64,000 bases of DNA, from the NCBI GenBank assembly GCA_003762875.1, contig RIBL01000007.1, positions 1-64,000 on the forward strand, in the 5' to 3' direction. A program made the translations under genes and the position numbers. This DNA is from Muribaculaceae bacterium Isolate-110 (HZI). GTDB lineage: Bacteria > Bacteroidota > Bacteroidia > Bacteroidales > Muribaculaceae. A model generated the notes under the pieces. That model was not told the origin of the DNA. It saw only the letters and a program-made list of their open reading frames with translations, and ran no database searches. This document shows positions 10,404-14,204 of the stretch, piece after piece; within the stretch, counting starts at the first letter, position 1, and each line of letters starts with the position of its first letter.

Positions 10404-11188
10404 AAATCTGCACCATCCCCCTCGACATAGCGTATGCCTCGGTCGAGGACAATCTGCTCACGGCCGCCAAGGCTCTCAACGACGTGGAGCGCGACACCGA
10501 TGTAGTGGTGCTGCCCGAGCTCTTCACCACCTCGTTTGTGCCCGATCAGAAGACCGTCTCGCAGCTTGCCGAGCCCAACGACGGACGCACCGTCGCGGCT
10601 CTCCGACGCTGGGCCGAGTTTTTCGGCTTTGCCATAGCGGGCAGTTTTCTGGCCACCGACGGAGGAGGCCGTTATTTCAACCGCGGCTTCTTCATGGAGC
10701 CGGGGGGCGACGTGACGTTTTATGACAAACGCCACCTCTTCCCGCTGTCGACCGAGGACAAGGTCTACACCCCCGGACGCGAGATGCCGGCACGCATACG
10801 TTATCGCGGCTGTGAGTTCATGCTGGTGTTGTGTTTCGACCTCCGTTTCCCCGTGTGGACGCGCAACAGGCCCGAGTCGATGTATGATGTGCTGATTGTG
10901 CCGGCCAACTGGCCCCACTCTCGGGCCGAGCAGCTCAAGACATTGCTTGCCGCACGCGCTATCGAAAATCAGGCCTATGTCATCGTGGCCAACTGCTCGG
11001 GCTCTGACAAGTATGGCGAATACAAGCTGTCAGACTCAGGCATGTATGACAATCTCGGCGTCAATATCCAGGAAACGCGCCGCAACGGCTATCATTACGC
11101 CTTGCTCGACCTCCGCGCGCTTGCCCAGGGCCGTGCCCGCTTTCCCGCCTATGCCGCGTCGGACAAGTGGAGCATCGAACTCCCCTGA
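10400..11188 (+). CDS. Carbon-nitrogen hydrolase (omega-amidase/YafV-like)
   Basis: A 262-residue nitrilase-superfamily enzyme with the Glu-Lys-Cys triad visible as VVLPELF, FYDKRHLF and VLCFDLRFP. The short form and the CFDLRFPVW block resemble omega-amidase/YafV proteins, which hydrolyse alpha-ketoglutaramate or related omega-amides in metabolite repair. Start ATG overlaps the stop of the acyltransferase gene. It is the last plus-strand gene before a convergent structured intergenic region. Confidence 0.85.
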   Translation: MKICTIPLDIAYASVEDNLLTAAKALNDVERDTDVVVLPELFTTSFVPDQKTVSQLAEPNDGRTVAALRRWAEFFGFAIAGSFLATDGGGRYFNRGFFMEPGGDVTFYDKRHLFPLSTEDKVYTPGREMPARIRYRGCEFMLVLCFDLRFPVWTRNRPESMYDVLIVPANWPHSRAEQLKTLLAARAIENQAYVIVANCSGSDKYGEYKLSDSGMYDNLGVNIQETRRNGYHYALLDLRALAQGRARFPAYAASDKWSIELP

Positions 11189-11212
11189 ACCCCCAACCGC
11201 ACAAGTTGGGGG

Positions 11213-11261
11213 GATACAAAAGGACATAAGTCTGCGGGGGGAGATACAAAAGGACATAAGT
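11213..11261 (+). repeat. Two direct copies of a 19-bp sequence
   Basis: GATACAAAAGGACATAAGT occurs at 11213-11231 and 11243-11261, offset by 30 bp. The second copy is also the outer end of a 37-bp inverted repeat, so a third inverted copy is at 11340-11358. This lies in the 268-bp gap between convergent genes, which otherwise holds no gene. Confidence 0.9.
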
Positions 11262-11358
11262 TTCATAAGAAACAAAAGTTTTTTTAATTATCCATATGGC
11301 TGTCGGTTATATAGATAAATGACTTTTGTTTCTTATGAAACTTATGTCCTTTTGTATC
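11243..11358. repeat. Perfect 37-bp inverted repeat
   Basis: Positions 11243-11279 are the exact reverse complement of 11322-11358, with a 42-base A/T-rich loop. The arms run from GATACAAAAGG to AACAAAAGT. It lies between the ends of two convergent genes and could work as a bidirectional terminator, but its perfect, long arms are more than a terminator requires. Confidence 0.92.
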
Positions 11359-11372
11359 CCCCTGTGCGGGGG

Positions 11373-11442
11373 CTCAGTCTCACAAAAGTGACACTACTGT
11401 GAGACTGTCTCATTACAGTGTCAAAATCGTGAGACTGAGACT
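11373..11442. repeat. 70-bp dyad array, left copy
   Basis: A dyad of 70 bp with the heptamer GTCTCAC/GTGAGAC (or one-base variants) at 11377, 11399, 11407 and 11429, giving start spacings of 22, 8 and 22, plus TGACACT (11389) and AGTGTCA (11417) between them. Outer arms of 11 bp are perfect. A further GTCTCAC is at 11447-11453. About 60 of 70 positions match the copy at 12812-12881. It abuts the 3' end of the ATPase gene. Confidence 0.9.
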
Positions 11443-11456
11443 GCTTGTCTCACTCT

Positions 11457-12677
11457 TCAGTCGTCCTGTTTTTTCAGTAGTCTGAAAGCTGTGGCGCGGC
11501 TCACCCCGAGAGCCGTGGCTATCTGTTCGGCACTCTTGCCCGCGGTCTTAAGCTCGTCGGCTGCTTTGCGGAGGTCGTCGCGCGAACGTCGGTTGCTCTG
11601 ACGCTCGGCCAGATGGGAGTCCTCGCTGTCGGTGCCTATGGATGAGAAGCCCACAAAGTTTTCGTAAATCTTGCCTATGGTGCATGAGAGCACATTGTCG
11701 CGGTCATAGACCTGCTCGCAGTTGCGCTGCTTGATCTGCTTGATATAGCGCAGGTCCTTACCGCGGTTGCTCTCGCCGATGGCAAAGGCCGAGTCGGCAA
11801 AGTTGATAAGCATCTTGGAGCCTTGGAGGTCATTGCGGGTGAGAGGGTTGCAGAGAGCGCGTTTAGGCGTATGGGCCAGCAGTAGTATACTCAGGTCGTG
11901 ACGCTTCTTGAGAGCTACGAGCTTCTTCATGAGCGGCATGGCGTCGGCGGCCGACTCGGTGCCCGAGGCCATGAAGGTGATATTGTCGATGATGAGTACT
12001 CGGGCCATCGCCTCCTCGATGCGCATCTCGAGGTCGGAGATAACCTGGTCGGCAAACGCCTGGGTGGCGTAATCGTCGGTAAAATCGTCGGACGACATGT
12101 CGTAACACAGCTCTACGCGGTTGAACTGCTGGCTGAAATCGTAATATACCTTGCGCCCCGGCTCGTCGGGATGCGGACACGAATAGCGTCGGCCAAACTG
12201 CACGAGACTCAGCTCAAAGTCGGCATAGACCACGGGCTGCGACAGTGTCTCGGGTCTGAGTTCGGGCAGAGTCGTAGTGCAGTGCATGCCGTTGGCCACC
12301 ATGTCGGCTATCTGCACGGCGAGTATCGACTTGCCCACATTGGTGTCGGCAAACAGTATGCATATCTCTCCCTCATACCATAGCGGACCACACAACTGCT
12401 TCTGGTCAATGGTCACTGCTGCGTGTCGGGCCCAGTCAGACCCCGACAGCATGCGAGTGATGGCAGGTCGGCGTGACGCAGGTGCAGGTCGGGGCTTTAC
12501 AGCCGCCTGCTTCTCTTTCTTAGGAGGATTACAGGCGGCCGTCTGAGCCGCATTGGCCGCGGCAGTAGCGGCCTCGGCCCTAATGTCAGACAATATCTTG
12601 CTCAAGGAAGATATGTGAAGAGGTTTCCCGCTTTTTTTAGCGAGGGCGACGTGACGTTTGTTTCGTACATCAGACAT
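11457..12677 (-). CDS. RepA/RecA-like AAA family ATPase with C-terminal helix-turn-helix
   Basis: A 406-residue protein. Residues 1-75 are a basic, Ala/Pro-rich, probably flexible region. Residues about 80-320 form a RecA-fold ATPase of the RepA/AAA_25 type, with a Walker A variant ADTNVGKS (110-117, first Gly absent), Walker B VLIID (227-231), a LLLAHT motif-III-like strand (266-270) and DLQGSK (283-288). Residues about 375-402 form a resolvase-type helix-turn-helix (AEQIATALGVSRATAFRLL), so it probably binds DNA. Such ATPases are found in plasmids, phages and integrative elements and are related to hexameric replication helicases. It is bracketed by two near-identical 70-bp dyad arrays. No integrase, relaxase or primase is adjacent. 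Precise role unknown. Confidence 0.8.
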   Translation of the reverse strand: MSDVRNKRHVALAKKSGKPLHISSLSKILSDIRAEAATAAANAAQTAACNPPKKEKQAAVKPRPAPASRRPAITRMLSGSDWARHAAVTIDQKQLCGPLWYEGEICILFADTNVGKSILAVQIADMVANGMHCTTTLPELRPETLSQPVVYADFELSLVQFGRRYSCPHPDEPGRKVYYDFSQQFNRVELCYDMSSDDFTDDYATQAFADQVISDLEMRIEEAMARVLIIDNITFMASGTESAADAMPLMKKLVALKKRHDLSILLLAHTPKRALCNPLTRNDLQGSKMLINFADSAFAIGESNRGKDLRYIKQIKQRNCEQVYDRDNVLSCTIGKIYENFVGFSSIGTDSEDSHLAERQSNRRSRDDLRKAADELKTAGKSAEQIATALGVSRATAFRLLKKQDD

Positions 12678-12714
12678 AATATTTAGGGTGAGGGGGATGT
12701 TAAGGCCTCACGCT

Positions 12715-12760
12715 GCAAAGTTACGTCACGCCAAGGGCCCTAAAGGTGCGATAATGTCGC
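12715..12760 (-). promoter_or_regulatory. ATPase promoter with GCGA-N5-TCGC element
   Basis: On the minus strand a -7 box TAACTTTGC is at 12723-12715. Eighteen bases upstream is a 19-bp element (12742-12760; plus-strand reading AAAGGTGCGATAATGTCGC) holding the inverted repeat GCGA-N5-TCGC and overlapping the expected -33 region. The same 19 bp stand at the same place before the gene starting at 60321. Confidence 0.75.
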
Positions 12761-12811
12761 ATGGCGTCGATAATAAGGGAGCAACTGAGGTTTTTTGTCC
12801 TCGTGTGCAGT

Positions 12812-12881
12812 CTCAGTCTCACAAAGTTGACACTCTTGTGAGACAGTCTCATGTCAGTGTCAAAACAGTGAGACTGAGACT
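12812..12881. repeat. 70-bp dyad array, right copy
   Basis: Second copy of the dyad at 11373-11442, same orientation and spacing: heptamers at 12816, 12838, 12846 and 12868. Outer arms are perfect over 14 bp when extended (12809-12822 with 12868-12881). It lies about 135 bp upstream of the ATPase start, beyond its promoter. The 347-bp gap 12678-13024 holds only this array, the ATPase promoter and the tRNA promoter. Confidence 0.9.
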
Positions 12882-12971
12882 CGGGGGTGAAAACATGGGG
12901 GGATAACGGGATTTTCGTTATTTACATTCCTTGTCGCCTGTTCCCTATTTTCCTATTTTACATTTATTTGT

Positions 12972-13004
12972 TTTGGAGATTTCTCGGATAATGCGTATCT
13001 TTGC
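12972..13004 (+). promoter_or_regulatory. Promoter of tRNA-Arg
   Basis: TTTG at 12972-12975 and TATCTTTGC at 12996-13004, separated by 20 bp, match the Bacteroidota housekeeping promoter. It points to the tRNA gene 20 bp downstream. Confidence 0.8.
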
Positions 13005-13024
13005 ACTGCATTTGATGCACGTCT

Positions 13025-13096
13025 GCCTTGGTAGTTCAATGGATAGAATGGGAAATTCCTAATTTTCAGATAGGGGTTCGATTCCCCTCCGAGGTA
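13025..13096 (+). tRNA. tRNA-Arg (anticodon CCT)
   Basis: The 72 bases fold as a cloverleaf: acceptor GCCTTGG with CCGAGGT (one G-U end pair and one T-G), D arm GTTC/GAAT with GGA (A20 is an arginine identity element), anticodon stem GGAAA/TTTTC with loop TTCCTAA giving anticodon CCT for AGG codons, T arm AGGGG-TTCGATT-CCCCT, and discriminator A at 13096. CCA is not encoded. tRNA genes are frequent integration sites, and this one lies 143 bp from the right dyad array, but I see no duplicated tRNA 3' end in the region. Confidence 0.93.
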
Positions 13097-13175
13097 CGAA
13101 ACACATTATTTGTTCGTTCATTTTTTGTTTGTTAGGCCGTCGGTCACAGTGGTTGTGGCTGACGGTTTGTCGTCT

Positions 13176-14204
13176 CTATATCTCTATAGGCTCGTCGGGC
13201 TCGAAGTCGCGTATGGCGCGGGTGCCTGTGACGGAGTCCCATAGCATTGGGCTTAGCCCGGTGCCGGGACGTTTGGCCGCGAGATTGCTGTCGGAGAGGG
13301 TCTCGCCCTTGGAGATGTGGCGCGCGGCCACGATGCTCTTGCGCGCCACGGCTATGTTGGGCCGCTCGGCCTCGGTGACGGTCTTGTCGGGGTGTCCGAG
13401 GGCCAGCTCCGTCTCGCGTATGGCCGAGACCATGGCTGCGAGCTCGTCGGGCGTGAGCGACGCCTTGTGGTCGGGCCCCGGCATGGAGCGGTCGAGCGTG
13501 AAATGCTTCTCTATAATCATGGCTCCGCGGGCTGCTGCGGCTATGGTCACGGTGATGCCGCGCGTGTGGTCGCTGTAGCCTGTGCCGCCACATCCGAGCG
13601 TGGCGAGCGTGTCCATGGCGCGGAGATTGACGGCCTCGGGCGGGGTGGGGTATTGGGTGGTGCAGTGCAGCAGGTAGATGTCGGAGCGTGTGATGAGTCC
13701 TCCCTCGCATAGAGCGGTCACGGCACTCTCCACCTCGGGGAGTGTCGACATGCCTGTCGAGAGGATGACGCGTCCCCCCTTGGATGCTATGTGGCGCAGA
13801 TAGGGCAGATTGGTGATTTCGCCCGAGGGTATCTTCCAGTAGTCCATGCCGAGGGCCGCGAGCTGGTCGATGGATTCGTGGTCAAACGGGGTGCTCATGA
13901 AGCCCACCCCCTGACGGCGACACTCTTCGGCCAGCCGCGCAAAGTCGGCCGCGGTCAGTTCGAGCCCCTTGAGCATAGCCAGTTGAGAGTTGTCGTCGCC
14001 CTCGCGGTCACCGCAGTTTTCCTGCTGATAGCGGGCCTTGGGGGCTGAGGCCGACACGAGATTTTCGGCCTTGAAGGTCTGAAACTTCACATAGTCGACT
14101 CCGGCACGGGCCGCGCGGCCCACCATCTCGAGGGCCGTGTCGAGCGAGCCGTTGTGGTTGACGCCCGCTTCGGCTATTATTATGGTGTGGGGAGGTGTTG
14201 TCAT
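13176..14204 (-). CDS. neuB: N-acetylneuraminate synthase family protein
   Basis: Condenses an N-acetyl amino sugar with phosphoenolpyruvate to form a nonulosonic (sialic-type) acid. The 342-residue protein has the TIM-barrel start IIIAEAGVNHNGSLDTA, the KFQTFKAENLV segment, STPFDHES, and HCTTQYPTP, GYSDHT and EKHFTLDR blocks; a C-terminal SAF/antifreeze-like domain begins near residue 290 (KSIVAARHISKGE). Whether the product is Neu5Ac, legionaminic or another acid is not decidable. It ends 9 bp after the NeuD-like gene, suggesting one envelope-glycan unit; no CMP-sialate synthetase is in the window. Confidence 0.92.
   Translation of the reverse strand: MTTPPHTIIIAEAGVNHNGSLDTALEMVGRAARAGVDYVKFQTFKAENLVSASAPKARYQQENCGDREGDDNSQLAMLKGLELTAADFARLAEECRRQGVGFMSTPFDHESIDQLAALGMDYWKIPSGEITNLPYLRHIASKGGRVILSTGMSTLPEVESAVTALCEGGLITRSDIYLLHCTTQYPTPPEAVNLRAMDTLATLGCGGTGYSDHTRGITVTIAAAARGAMIIEKHFTLDRSMPGPDHKASLTPDELAAMVSAIRETELALGHPDKTVTEAERPNIAVARKSIVAARHISKGETLSDSNLAAKRPGTGLSPMLWDSVTGTRAIRDFEPDEPIEI

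Follow-up and report, generated by a model that had tools for sequence, protein, structure and literature searches.

A helicase-HTH gene between putative iteron arrays shares its promoter with scattered phage genes in Muribaculaceae

The stretch of Muribaculaceae DNA analysed here (64,000 nucleotides; hereafter, the window) contains one gene for a RecA-fold ATPase that is bracketed by matched heptamer arrays and preceded by a promoter also found upstream of scattered phage genes. With moderate confidence, we read the locus as a minimal replication module, in which an iteron-loaded helicase would be fired together with a regulon like that of a gene transfer agent (GTA). The shared promoter suggests an undescribed GTA-like system and, linked with it, a possible origin of replication, and the role of the module is best read as that of either a GTA amplification origin or a selfish passenger.

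A helicase-type gene between matched arrays

The locus comprises the following features:

11373..11444, no strand: array 1, a dyad of four GTCTCA/TGAGAC heptamers with an inner TGACACT/AGTGTCA pair, 3' of the ATPase gene; putative iterons
11457..12677, minus strand: ATPase gene, 406 aa, RecA-fold, DnaB/phage-helicase type, with Walker A FADTNVGKS and Walker B VLIIDN
residues ~369-404 of this 406-aa protein, minus strand: C-terminal HTH of the ATPase
12714..12764, minus strand: promoter GCGACATTATCGCACC...TAACTTTGC, common to scattered phage genes, with operator dyad TGCGAcattaTCGCA
12810..12881, no strand: array 2, same architecture as array 1, upstream of the ATPase gene; putative iterons
13025-13097: tRNA-Arg(CCT)

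The arrays fall within direct repeats of 79 nt (11364-11442 and 12803-12881, 84% identical), and, because each array is also a dyad, the two copies match in either orientation. This agrees with the earlier note on this DNA, which described two matched dyads of about 70 bp around one gene. The note also gave each array four heptamers of the GTGAGAC/GTCTCAC type; the start spacings of 22, 8, and 22 hold in both (11377, 11399, 11407, and 11429 in array 1; 12816, 12838, 12846, and 12868 in array 2), but the third heptamer is GTCTCAT in either array, not GTCTCAC. The TGACACT/AGTGTCA pair that it placed within each array lies at 11389/11417 and 12828/12856. Half-sites adjoin both arrays on the outer side, and an extra GTCTCAC is present at 11447. 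A search for the strict four-heptamer pattern gave two hits in the 64-kb window and none in 300 dinucleotide shuffles, and blastn aligns the upstream and downstream flanks of the ATPase gene at 82% over 93 columns (E 5e-22). Just outside array 1 is a strong hairpin (11209-11362; 46-nt arms, 93%), which holds three copies of a GGGGGATACAAAAGGACATAAGT-type repeat. An RNA reading of the locus was rejected, the only Rfam match in 10800-13600 being the tRNA.

The 406-aa protein matches AAA_25 in Pfam (PF13481, E 2e-19), and its predicted structure (mean pLDDT 81) combines a RecA core with a helical HTH at the C-terminus, as the earlier note had proposed from the letters; Pfam matches of the HTH fall under the cut-offs. 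The RecA fold with Walker A and B motifs is that of DnaB/RepA-type helicases, and the top phage families are a primase/helicase (phrog_239, 4e-16) and DnaB (phrog_19, 6e-11). A PDB profile search was topped by an unrelated DNA-binding HTH region (8vd6, 8e-8), followed by the T7 primase/helicase (3e-5). A fold search with the model matched KaiC, RadA, T7 gp4, and 2r6a, which we take to be DnaB; since KaiC and RadA rank as high as the helicases, the search does not fix the exact ATPase subfamily.

The helicase-type gene is the only gene between the arrays and is present once in its genome (G000). Neither a primase nor any other replication gene could be recognised next to it, which counts against a replication module. 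Several other classes of element were considered and rejected. No transposase or integrase lies between the arrays, as a transposon or insertion sequence would have. REP/RAYT elements are defined by a Y1-type transposase gene; here, Pfam gives AAA_25 and HTH. As for a defence system, PADLOC returned only weak HTH matches for the ATPase.

Arrays and recognition helices in related genomes

We searched 61 genomes: 27 of the same genus, 10 of other genera of the family, and 24 of other families. The ATPase occurs in nine of them (eight of the same genus, plus G060) and in two of the 41 genomes with completeness of at least 90% and contamination of at most 5%. Two counts speak against our favoured reading: 19 of the 27 same-genus genomes lack the ATPase, and the phage genes persist in nearly all of these 19; and among the 14 same-genus genomes that are at least 90% complete, only the genome of the window has it. 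Three of the eight same-genus ATPases lie on contigs of less than 21 kb.

When the 700-bp flanks upstream and downstream of the ATPase were compared (blastn, E < 1e-3), arrays were found on both sides in all seven same-genus loci with both flanks readable (G000, G020, G013, G023, G009, G007, and G021). The eighth, G024, shows the upstream array only because its contig ends inside the ATPase gene; G060 has an array downstream only. Control loci, with the same promoter and other genes, have an upstream/downstream repeat in 0 of 20 and 1 of 40 cases (L184). The one motif common to two genomes is GTCTCA (G000 and, by eye, G020); the others are TGTCCAATAG in G013, CGTTTCA in G023, TGTCCCG in G009, CGATAAC in G007, ATAATCA in G021, and TGTCCGC in G024. 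The expectation of the earlier note that dyads flank this gene family in relatives is thus borne out in the genus, with motifs that differ between genomes, and no ATPase without arrays was seen there.

Its companion expectation, that arrays would not stand apart from the ATPase, held in part: such arrays are few, but some exist (one in the own genome, one in G020, three in G013, and none in G023). The own genome has one further locus, plus two 17-nt matches at chance level; on its contig C1 (~85.75-86.17 kb), two GTGTCA-type arrays stand ~300 bp apart with an ATPase-type promoter between them and no ATPase ORF. In G013, C17 (~16.4-17.5 kb) holds a similar ORF-less locus; there are also a short match at 166.8 kb and, next to the nitrilase gene, an array in the slot that the module occupies in the window, but with G013's own motif. 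In G020, one array lies 3.8 kb away from the ATPase gene, and G023 has the flanking pair only. The ORF-less loci with a promoter look like non-autonomous or decayed copies that retain cis-acting parts. Near the G020 arrays (L022, 4240-4450) there are also tandem copies of a 15-bp repeat, CATTTCCGGCACGTC, and a palindromic, GC-rich one, GGGACGCGGCGTGCCGCGT.

Outside the genus, one-sided arrays are commoner than two-sided ones. Six of the 38 genome_contigs loci have an upstream/downstream match (three of these are same-genus loci), and two have flanks that are too short. A recognisable array lies downstream of the ATPase in G060 and in 15 of the 16 IMG/VR relatives read, starting 0-5 nt after the helicase stop codon in 12 of the 16, and in relatives on mobile elements the array often precedes a DUF6371 gene. 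Repeated sites next to the initiator gene are what characterises iteron replicons. DUF6371 homologues occur near the ATPase in 13 of 30 IMG/VR loci and integrase homologues in seven, with both in six; the corresponding counts for the genome_contigs loci are 0 of 38 and, for integrase matches, 2 of 38. The gene order in G060 is integrase, three genes, ATPase, array, and zinc-ribbon/DUF6371; its integrase has no homologue in the fetched stretches of the five other same-genus modules searched, that is, all but G021 and G024. A different dyad, TGACAAA..TGTCA, lies upstream of 16 of 35 non-Muribaculaceae homologues, mostly from Mucilaginibacter (L029-L059), and perhaps marks a second regulon.

We compared array motifs with recognition helices across 57 loci (nine from whole genomes, 32 of the 38 genome_contigs loci, and 16 of the 30 IMG/VR loci; three of the six omitted genome_contigs loci are same-genus loci already in the table), of which 49 had a callable array and 41 were left after removal of near-duplicates. 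The motif correlates with the recognition helix (Mantel r 0.27, p 0.0001; partial r 0.29, p 0.0001) and not with the ATPase core (r 0.05, p 0.23); the correlation is modest, and the motifs were machine-picked and wrong for some loci (that of G020 is another repeat). At least six of seven motif letters are common to 21 of 47 pairs with helix identity of at least 0.57, versus 38 of 773 other pairs; among pairs with core identity below 0.6, the counts are 8 of 14 for those with alike helices versus 34 of 697. Helices of the SLGxVNK type go with GTGAAC(A) (L308, L313, L315, L316, L319, L038, and, by its second motif, G060), SHM/SHQ with TGTAACA (L309-L312, L314), SVGxVNR with TGTTCAA (L318, L320), and SFSTV with TGAAACA (L028, L035, L327); exceptions are L036 (SFGSV with TGATCCA) and L050 (SHATV with TGAAACA). 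Because the motif tracks the recognition helix and not the ATPase core, the arrays are very probably iterons read by the C-terminal HTH. Among the options raised by the earlier note, the iteron or replication-initiator reading has the best support, from this covariation and from the arrays immediately behind the helicase gene in relatives.

A promoter shared with scattered phage genes

Portal, capsid, terminase, holin, and amidase genes that lie amid housekeeping genes have the ATPase promoter, CATTATCGCACC...TAACTTTGC, upstream as well. HMM searches identified the portal (PF16510, 1e-16), capsid (MCP; PF17236, 1.5e-46), holin (PF05105), and amidase (PF01510). The terminase (TerL) matches phrog_2 (4e-21), T4 gp17 (1e-4), and, by tblastn, annotated phage terminases. 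Pfam finds nothing in TerL, and no tail genes were identified; both points count against the favoured reading.

In the same genus, other genera of the family, and other families, respectively, portal matches occur in 26 of 27, 10 of 10, and 2 of 24 genomes, TerL matches in 26 of 27, 8 of 10, and 2 of 24, and MCP matches in 27 of 27 (partial in G024, G026, and G013), 9 of 10, and 2 of 24. Twenty-four of the same-genus TerL matches have at least 50% identity; G003 has a 122-residue piece, and the sole match in G007 is of the contiguous-phage type (42%). Contig C7 of the own genome carries portal and TerL, separated by 44 kb; C25 carries MCP and holin at a distance of ~20 kb, and C90 the amidase. 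G010 has portal, MCP, and TerL on a single contig with ~100 and 130 kb between them, and in G057, from another family, they are on three contigs. In other genera, the MCP often adjoins the portal with TerL elsewhere (G032-G036), and G029 has all three within 13 kb. The neighbours are housekeeping genes common to several genomes. Among 30 TerL loci read, an M16 peptidase is a neighbour in nine (own included) and an 806-aa-type gene in 24; by eye, mdh adjoins the terminase operon, and thiF/thiH-like genes the portal, in both G000 and G009.

Contiguous relatives of these genes are found in G055 (C81), G002 (C15), G025 (C1, at 2.07 Mb), G028 (C3), and Bacteroides phage BKO1-TP3. In the phage, a gene annotated as tail spike (PQ571269.1, 37872-39986) adjoins the portal and has 39% identity to TerL; this annotation looks wrong, as the gene matches the terminase large subunit. 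Some chromosomal copies are broken, through assembly error or decay, and this too counts against the favoured reading: the portal is in pieces in G008 and G025 and has a stop in G021; the MCP has a stop in G012, G019, G025, G028, and G033 and forms two pieces on two contigs in G013; and TerL has two stops in G019. The single internal stop of the MCP is TGA in four of the five genomes, and may reflect assembly error, decay, or something odder.

A published definition lists six features of GTAs: caudoviricete-derived structural proteins, endogenisation, vertical inheritance, random host DNA, a partial own genome, and delivery (Kogay et al. 2022, PMC9662315). Three of them can be read here from sequence: structural proteins of this derivation (portal, MCP, holin, amidase, and TerL), endogenisation across multiple loci (own C7, C25, and C90), and mostly vertical inheritance, the last provisionally, as the resemblance of the TerL tree to the nitrilase tree (by eye) concerns one marker and not a genome-wide tree. 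Given their scattering, the genes would likely be unable to package their own whole genome.

A strict form of the promoter (TTAWCGCACCTTT-N10-35-TTTGYA) occurs at 57 sites in 14 of the 27 same-genus genomes, seven of them in the own genome; a reversed-pattern control gave 0. We opened 40 sites as new loci; five more were already known (own C1 and C68, G020 C24, and two on G013 C17), and six of the 12 unopened sites sit, by coordinates, just upstream of a capsid, portal, or terminase operon (two each in G008, G021, and G002). Phage genes follow 13 of the 40 sites (portal, 3; 806-aa-type gene then TerL, 3; capsid, 4; holin, 2; amidase, 1), a small gene follows 12, gyrA and dnaB one each, and no recognisable gene 13, the last count being a point against the favoured reading; these calls were made by HMM for L161, L162, L164, L165, L175, and L196 and otherwise by match to those or by eye. 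The strict pattern alone undercounts the regulon, since it missed the own MCP promoter, which a relaxed box found. With at most one mismatch, the box lies upstream of 13 of 25 portal, 14 of 27 capsid, and 0 of 20 nitrilase loci (reverse-strand control: 0, 1, and 1); the scan took in 26 of 30 portal loci, one of them too short, and 30 MCP loci, three of them too short.

The small gene (~150-240 aa, PVSxxFY; L167, L170-L172, L175, L176, L185, L186, L191, L193, L197, and L198) is present in several copies in some genomes and had a weak DUF6291 match in the one case examined. The sites before the apparent gyrA and dnaB genes (by eye; L163 3004-3044 on own C14, and L192 2992-3031 in G005) hint that host replication genes may be co-regulated with the phage regulon.

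The four letters before CATTATCG are the same in the ATPase promoter and the capsid promoter of the same genome in six of seven genomes: GCGA in G000, G009, and G013, TTTT in G020, and TCGG in G021 and G023. In G007, the ATPase prefix GCTA equals that of the portal, and the capsid has ACTA. The ATPase prefix therefore matches the capsid or portal prefix of its own genome in seven of seven, though the ATPase lineages differ. The portal prefix also agrees in G000, G009, G013, and G021 and disagrees in G020; no portal box was found in G023, and for G024 neither a capsid nor a portal promoter was available for comparison. The prefixes of the own terminase, holin, and amidase promoters are each one letter off GCGA.

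Mobility, competing readings, and known systems

The ATPase module is patchy and horizontally moved. Judged by eye from its neighbours, it occupies eight different slots in eight same-genus genomes. The TerL tree groups G000, G009, G010, and G013, and the nitrilase tree groups the same four with G007. The ATPase tree rejects G000 with G009 (AU p 4e-7) and G021 with G023 (p 2e-54), and the TerL tree rejects the ATPase grouping of G000, G013, G020, and G023 (p 2e-6); these values are optimistic, as the groups were named after identities had been looked at. G000 and G009 share 41% identity in the ATPase, 73% in TerL, and 75% in nitrilase; for G000 and G020, the values are 68%, 63%, and 61%. A single origin of the eight same-genus ATPases was rejected with 18 rows (p 0.003) and not with 29 (p 0.10).

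The suggestion of the earlier note that the arrays are the ends of a small element near tRNA-Arg is partly upheld: the unit is array-bounded, has a new slot per genome, and has ORF-less copies, but transposase, integrase, and target duplication were not found at the module. The tRNA is not a general neighbour, as it accompanies only two of eight modules (the window and G023, with tRNA-Arg ACG ~0.7 kb beyond the upstream array); no tRNA lies within 10 kb in the other six stretches, two of which are short. At the nitrilase/tRNA-Arg slot, no empty site with a target duplication was found, because the sequence after nitrilase is not conserved (20 loci read); the G013 contig ends just past the array at this slot.

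In the favoured reading, the ATPase gene would make a helicase of the DnaB/phage type, probably ring-shaped, and its C-terminal HTH would bind the heptamers of both arrays, as the covariation suggests. By analogy with iteron replicons, phage P4, and the Bartonella run-off origin, the binding of many subunits on either side, some two helical turns apart, would lead to helicase loading, DNA opening, and local initiation of replication. The module would be switched on with the scattered, vertically inherited capsid, portal, terminase, holin, and amidase genes, their co-expression and the formation of particles being predicted likewise. If it fires with the phage regulon, the chromosomal DNA around it would be amplified when particles are made.

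Alternatively, the module could be a minimal mobile replicon under a phage/GTA promoter, amplified with the particles and over-packaged, that serves only itself. We regard this as a serious possibility, though one of less than even probability: it is favoured by the patchiness and changing slots, the conflict of the ATPase and TerL trees, the ORF-less copies that retain arrays and promoter, and a promoter prefix that matches the resident regulon, against which stand the missing integrase or transposase and the lack of an empty nitrilase slot with a target duplication. That the HTH merely represses or bridges its own gene, with no replication, would fit a gene flanked by arrays, one of them ~45 bp upstream of the promoter in the window; this seems improbable to us, as the protein core is of helicase type, the array lies downstream of the gene in G060 and nearly all IMG/VR relatives read, and arrays stay on both sides in ORF-less copies. 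The mobile relatives with integrase and DUF6371 raise the further thought that the module is inert, left over from an integrative element or from the origin of a prophage. This we hold to be very improbable: the ORF is open in seven other same-genus genomes at 38-68% identity to that of the window (G024 runs off its contig), matched arrays stand on both sides, and the promoter is in step with each genome.

The phage genes in turn might be a decaying prophage rather than a GTA-like system, as the contiguous sets and the broken copies would allow. We consider this unlikely, since almost every same-genus genome and most of the family keep portal, capsid, and terminase at separate places, one promoter serves the genus, and the TerL tree resembles the nitrilase tree. 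A bolder proposal, which we advance only as speculation with the chances against it, is that Muribaculaceae have a family-wide scattered GTA and that the ATPase-iteron module, a replicon of one gene, is the first parasite known for it; the module would capture the GTA promoter, amplify on cue, ride the particles, and escape cross-talk by joint change of iteron and helix.

If the favoured reading is true, a family common in the gut has a GTA-like system of gene transfer, a single promoter motif reveals its regulon, and the natural helicase-HTH/iteron pairs are a source for reading a DNA-recognition code. GTA parasites or dedicated amplification origins would also become testable; the one precedent found is run-off replication in Bartonella.

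Iteron replicons, phage P4 alpha/ori-crr, and RSF1010 RepA combine a helicase or initiator that has a DNA-binding domain with repeated sites beside the gene. The module resembles them in its helicase, DNA-binding domain, and adjoining repeats, but it has no recognised primase domain, is chromosomal, and has two-sided arrays with a motif that varies by genome. With the Bacteroidota integrase/AAA_25/DUF6371 elements (G060, IMG/VR), it shares a homologous helicase-HTH and an adjoining array; unlike them, the window copy lacks integrase and DUF6371 and has the phage-regulon promoter.

Our literature search found no paper on a GTA in Muribaculaceae (preprints and most subscription journals were outside its scope). 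A survey of packaged gut DNA describes GTA activity for Oscillospiraceae and Ruminococcaceae and lateral transduction for Bacteroides; searched for the words Muribacul and Duncaniella, it gave no match (PMC12946183). Like GTAs as defined in PMC9662315, the present system has scattered caudoviricete-derived genes and apparent vertical inheritance; its particles, random packaging, and delivery are predictions. In Bartonella, according to PMC2697382, a phage-type helicase (Twinkle-like) lies next to a putative origin, run-off-amplified DNA is packaged by the GTA, and the GTA and origin locus are conserved in the genus, with the origin in all genomes sequenced then. Our module likewise has a phage-type helicase next to a putative origin; unlike the Bartonella origin, it is patchy and moving, has matched array pairs of varying motif, and its amplification is a prediction.
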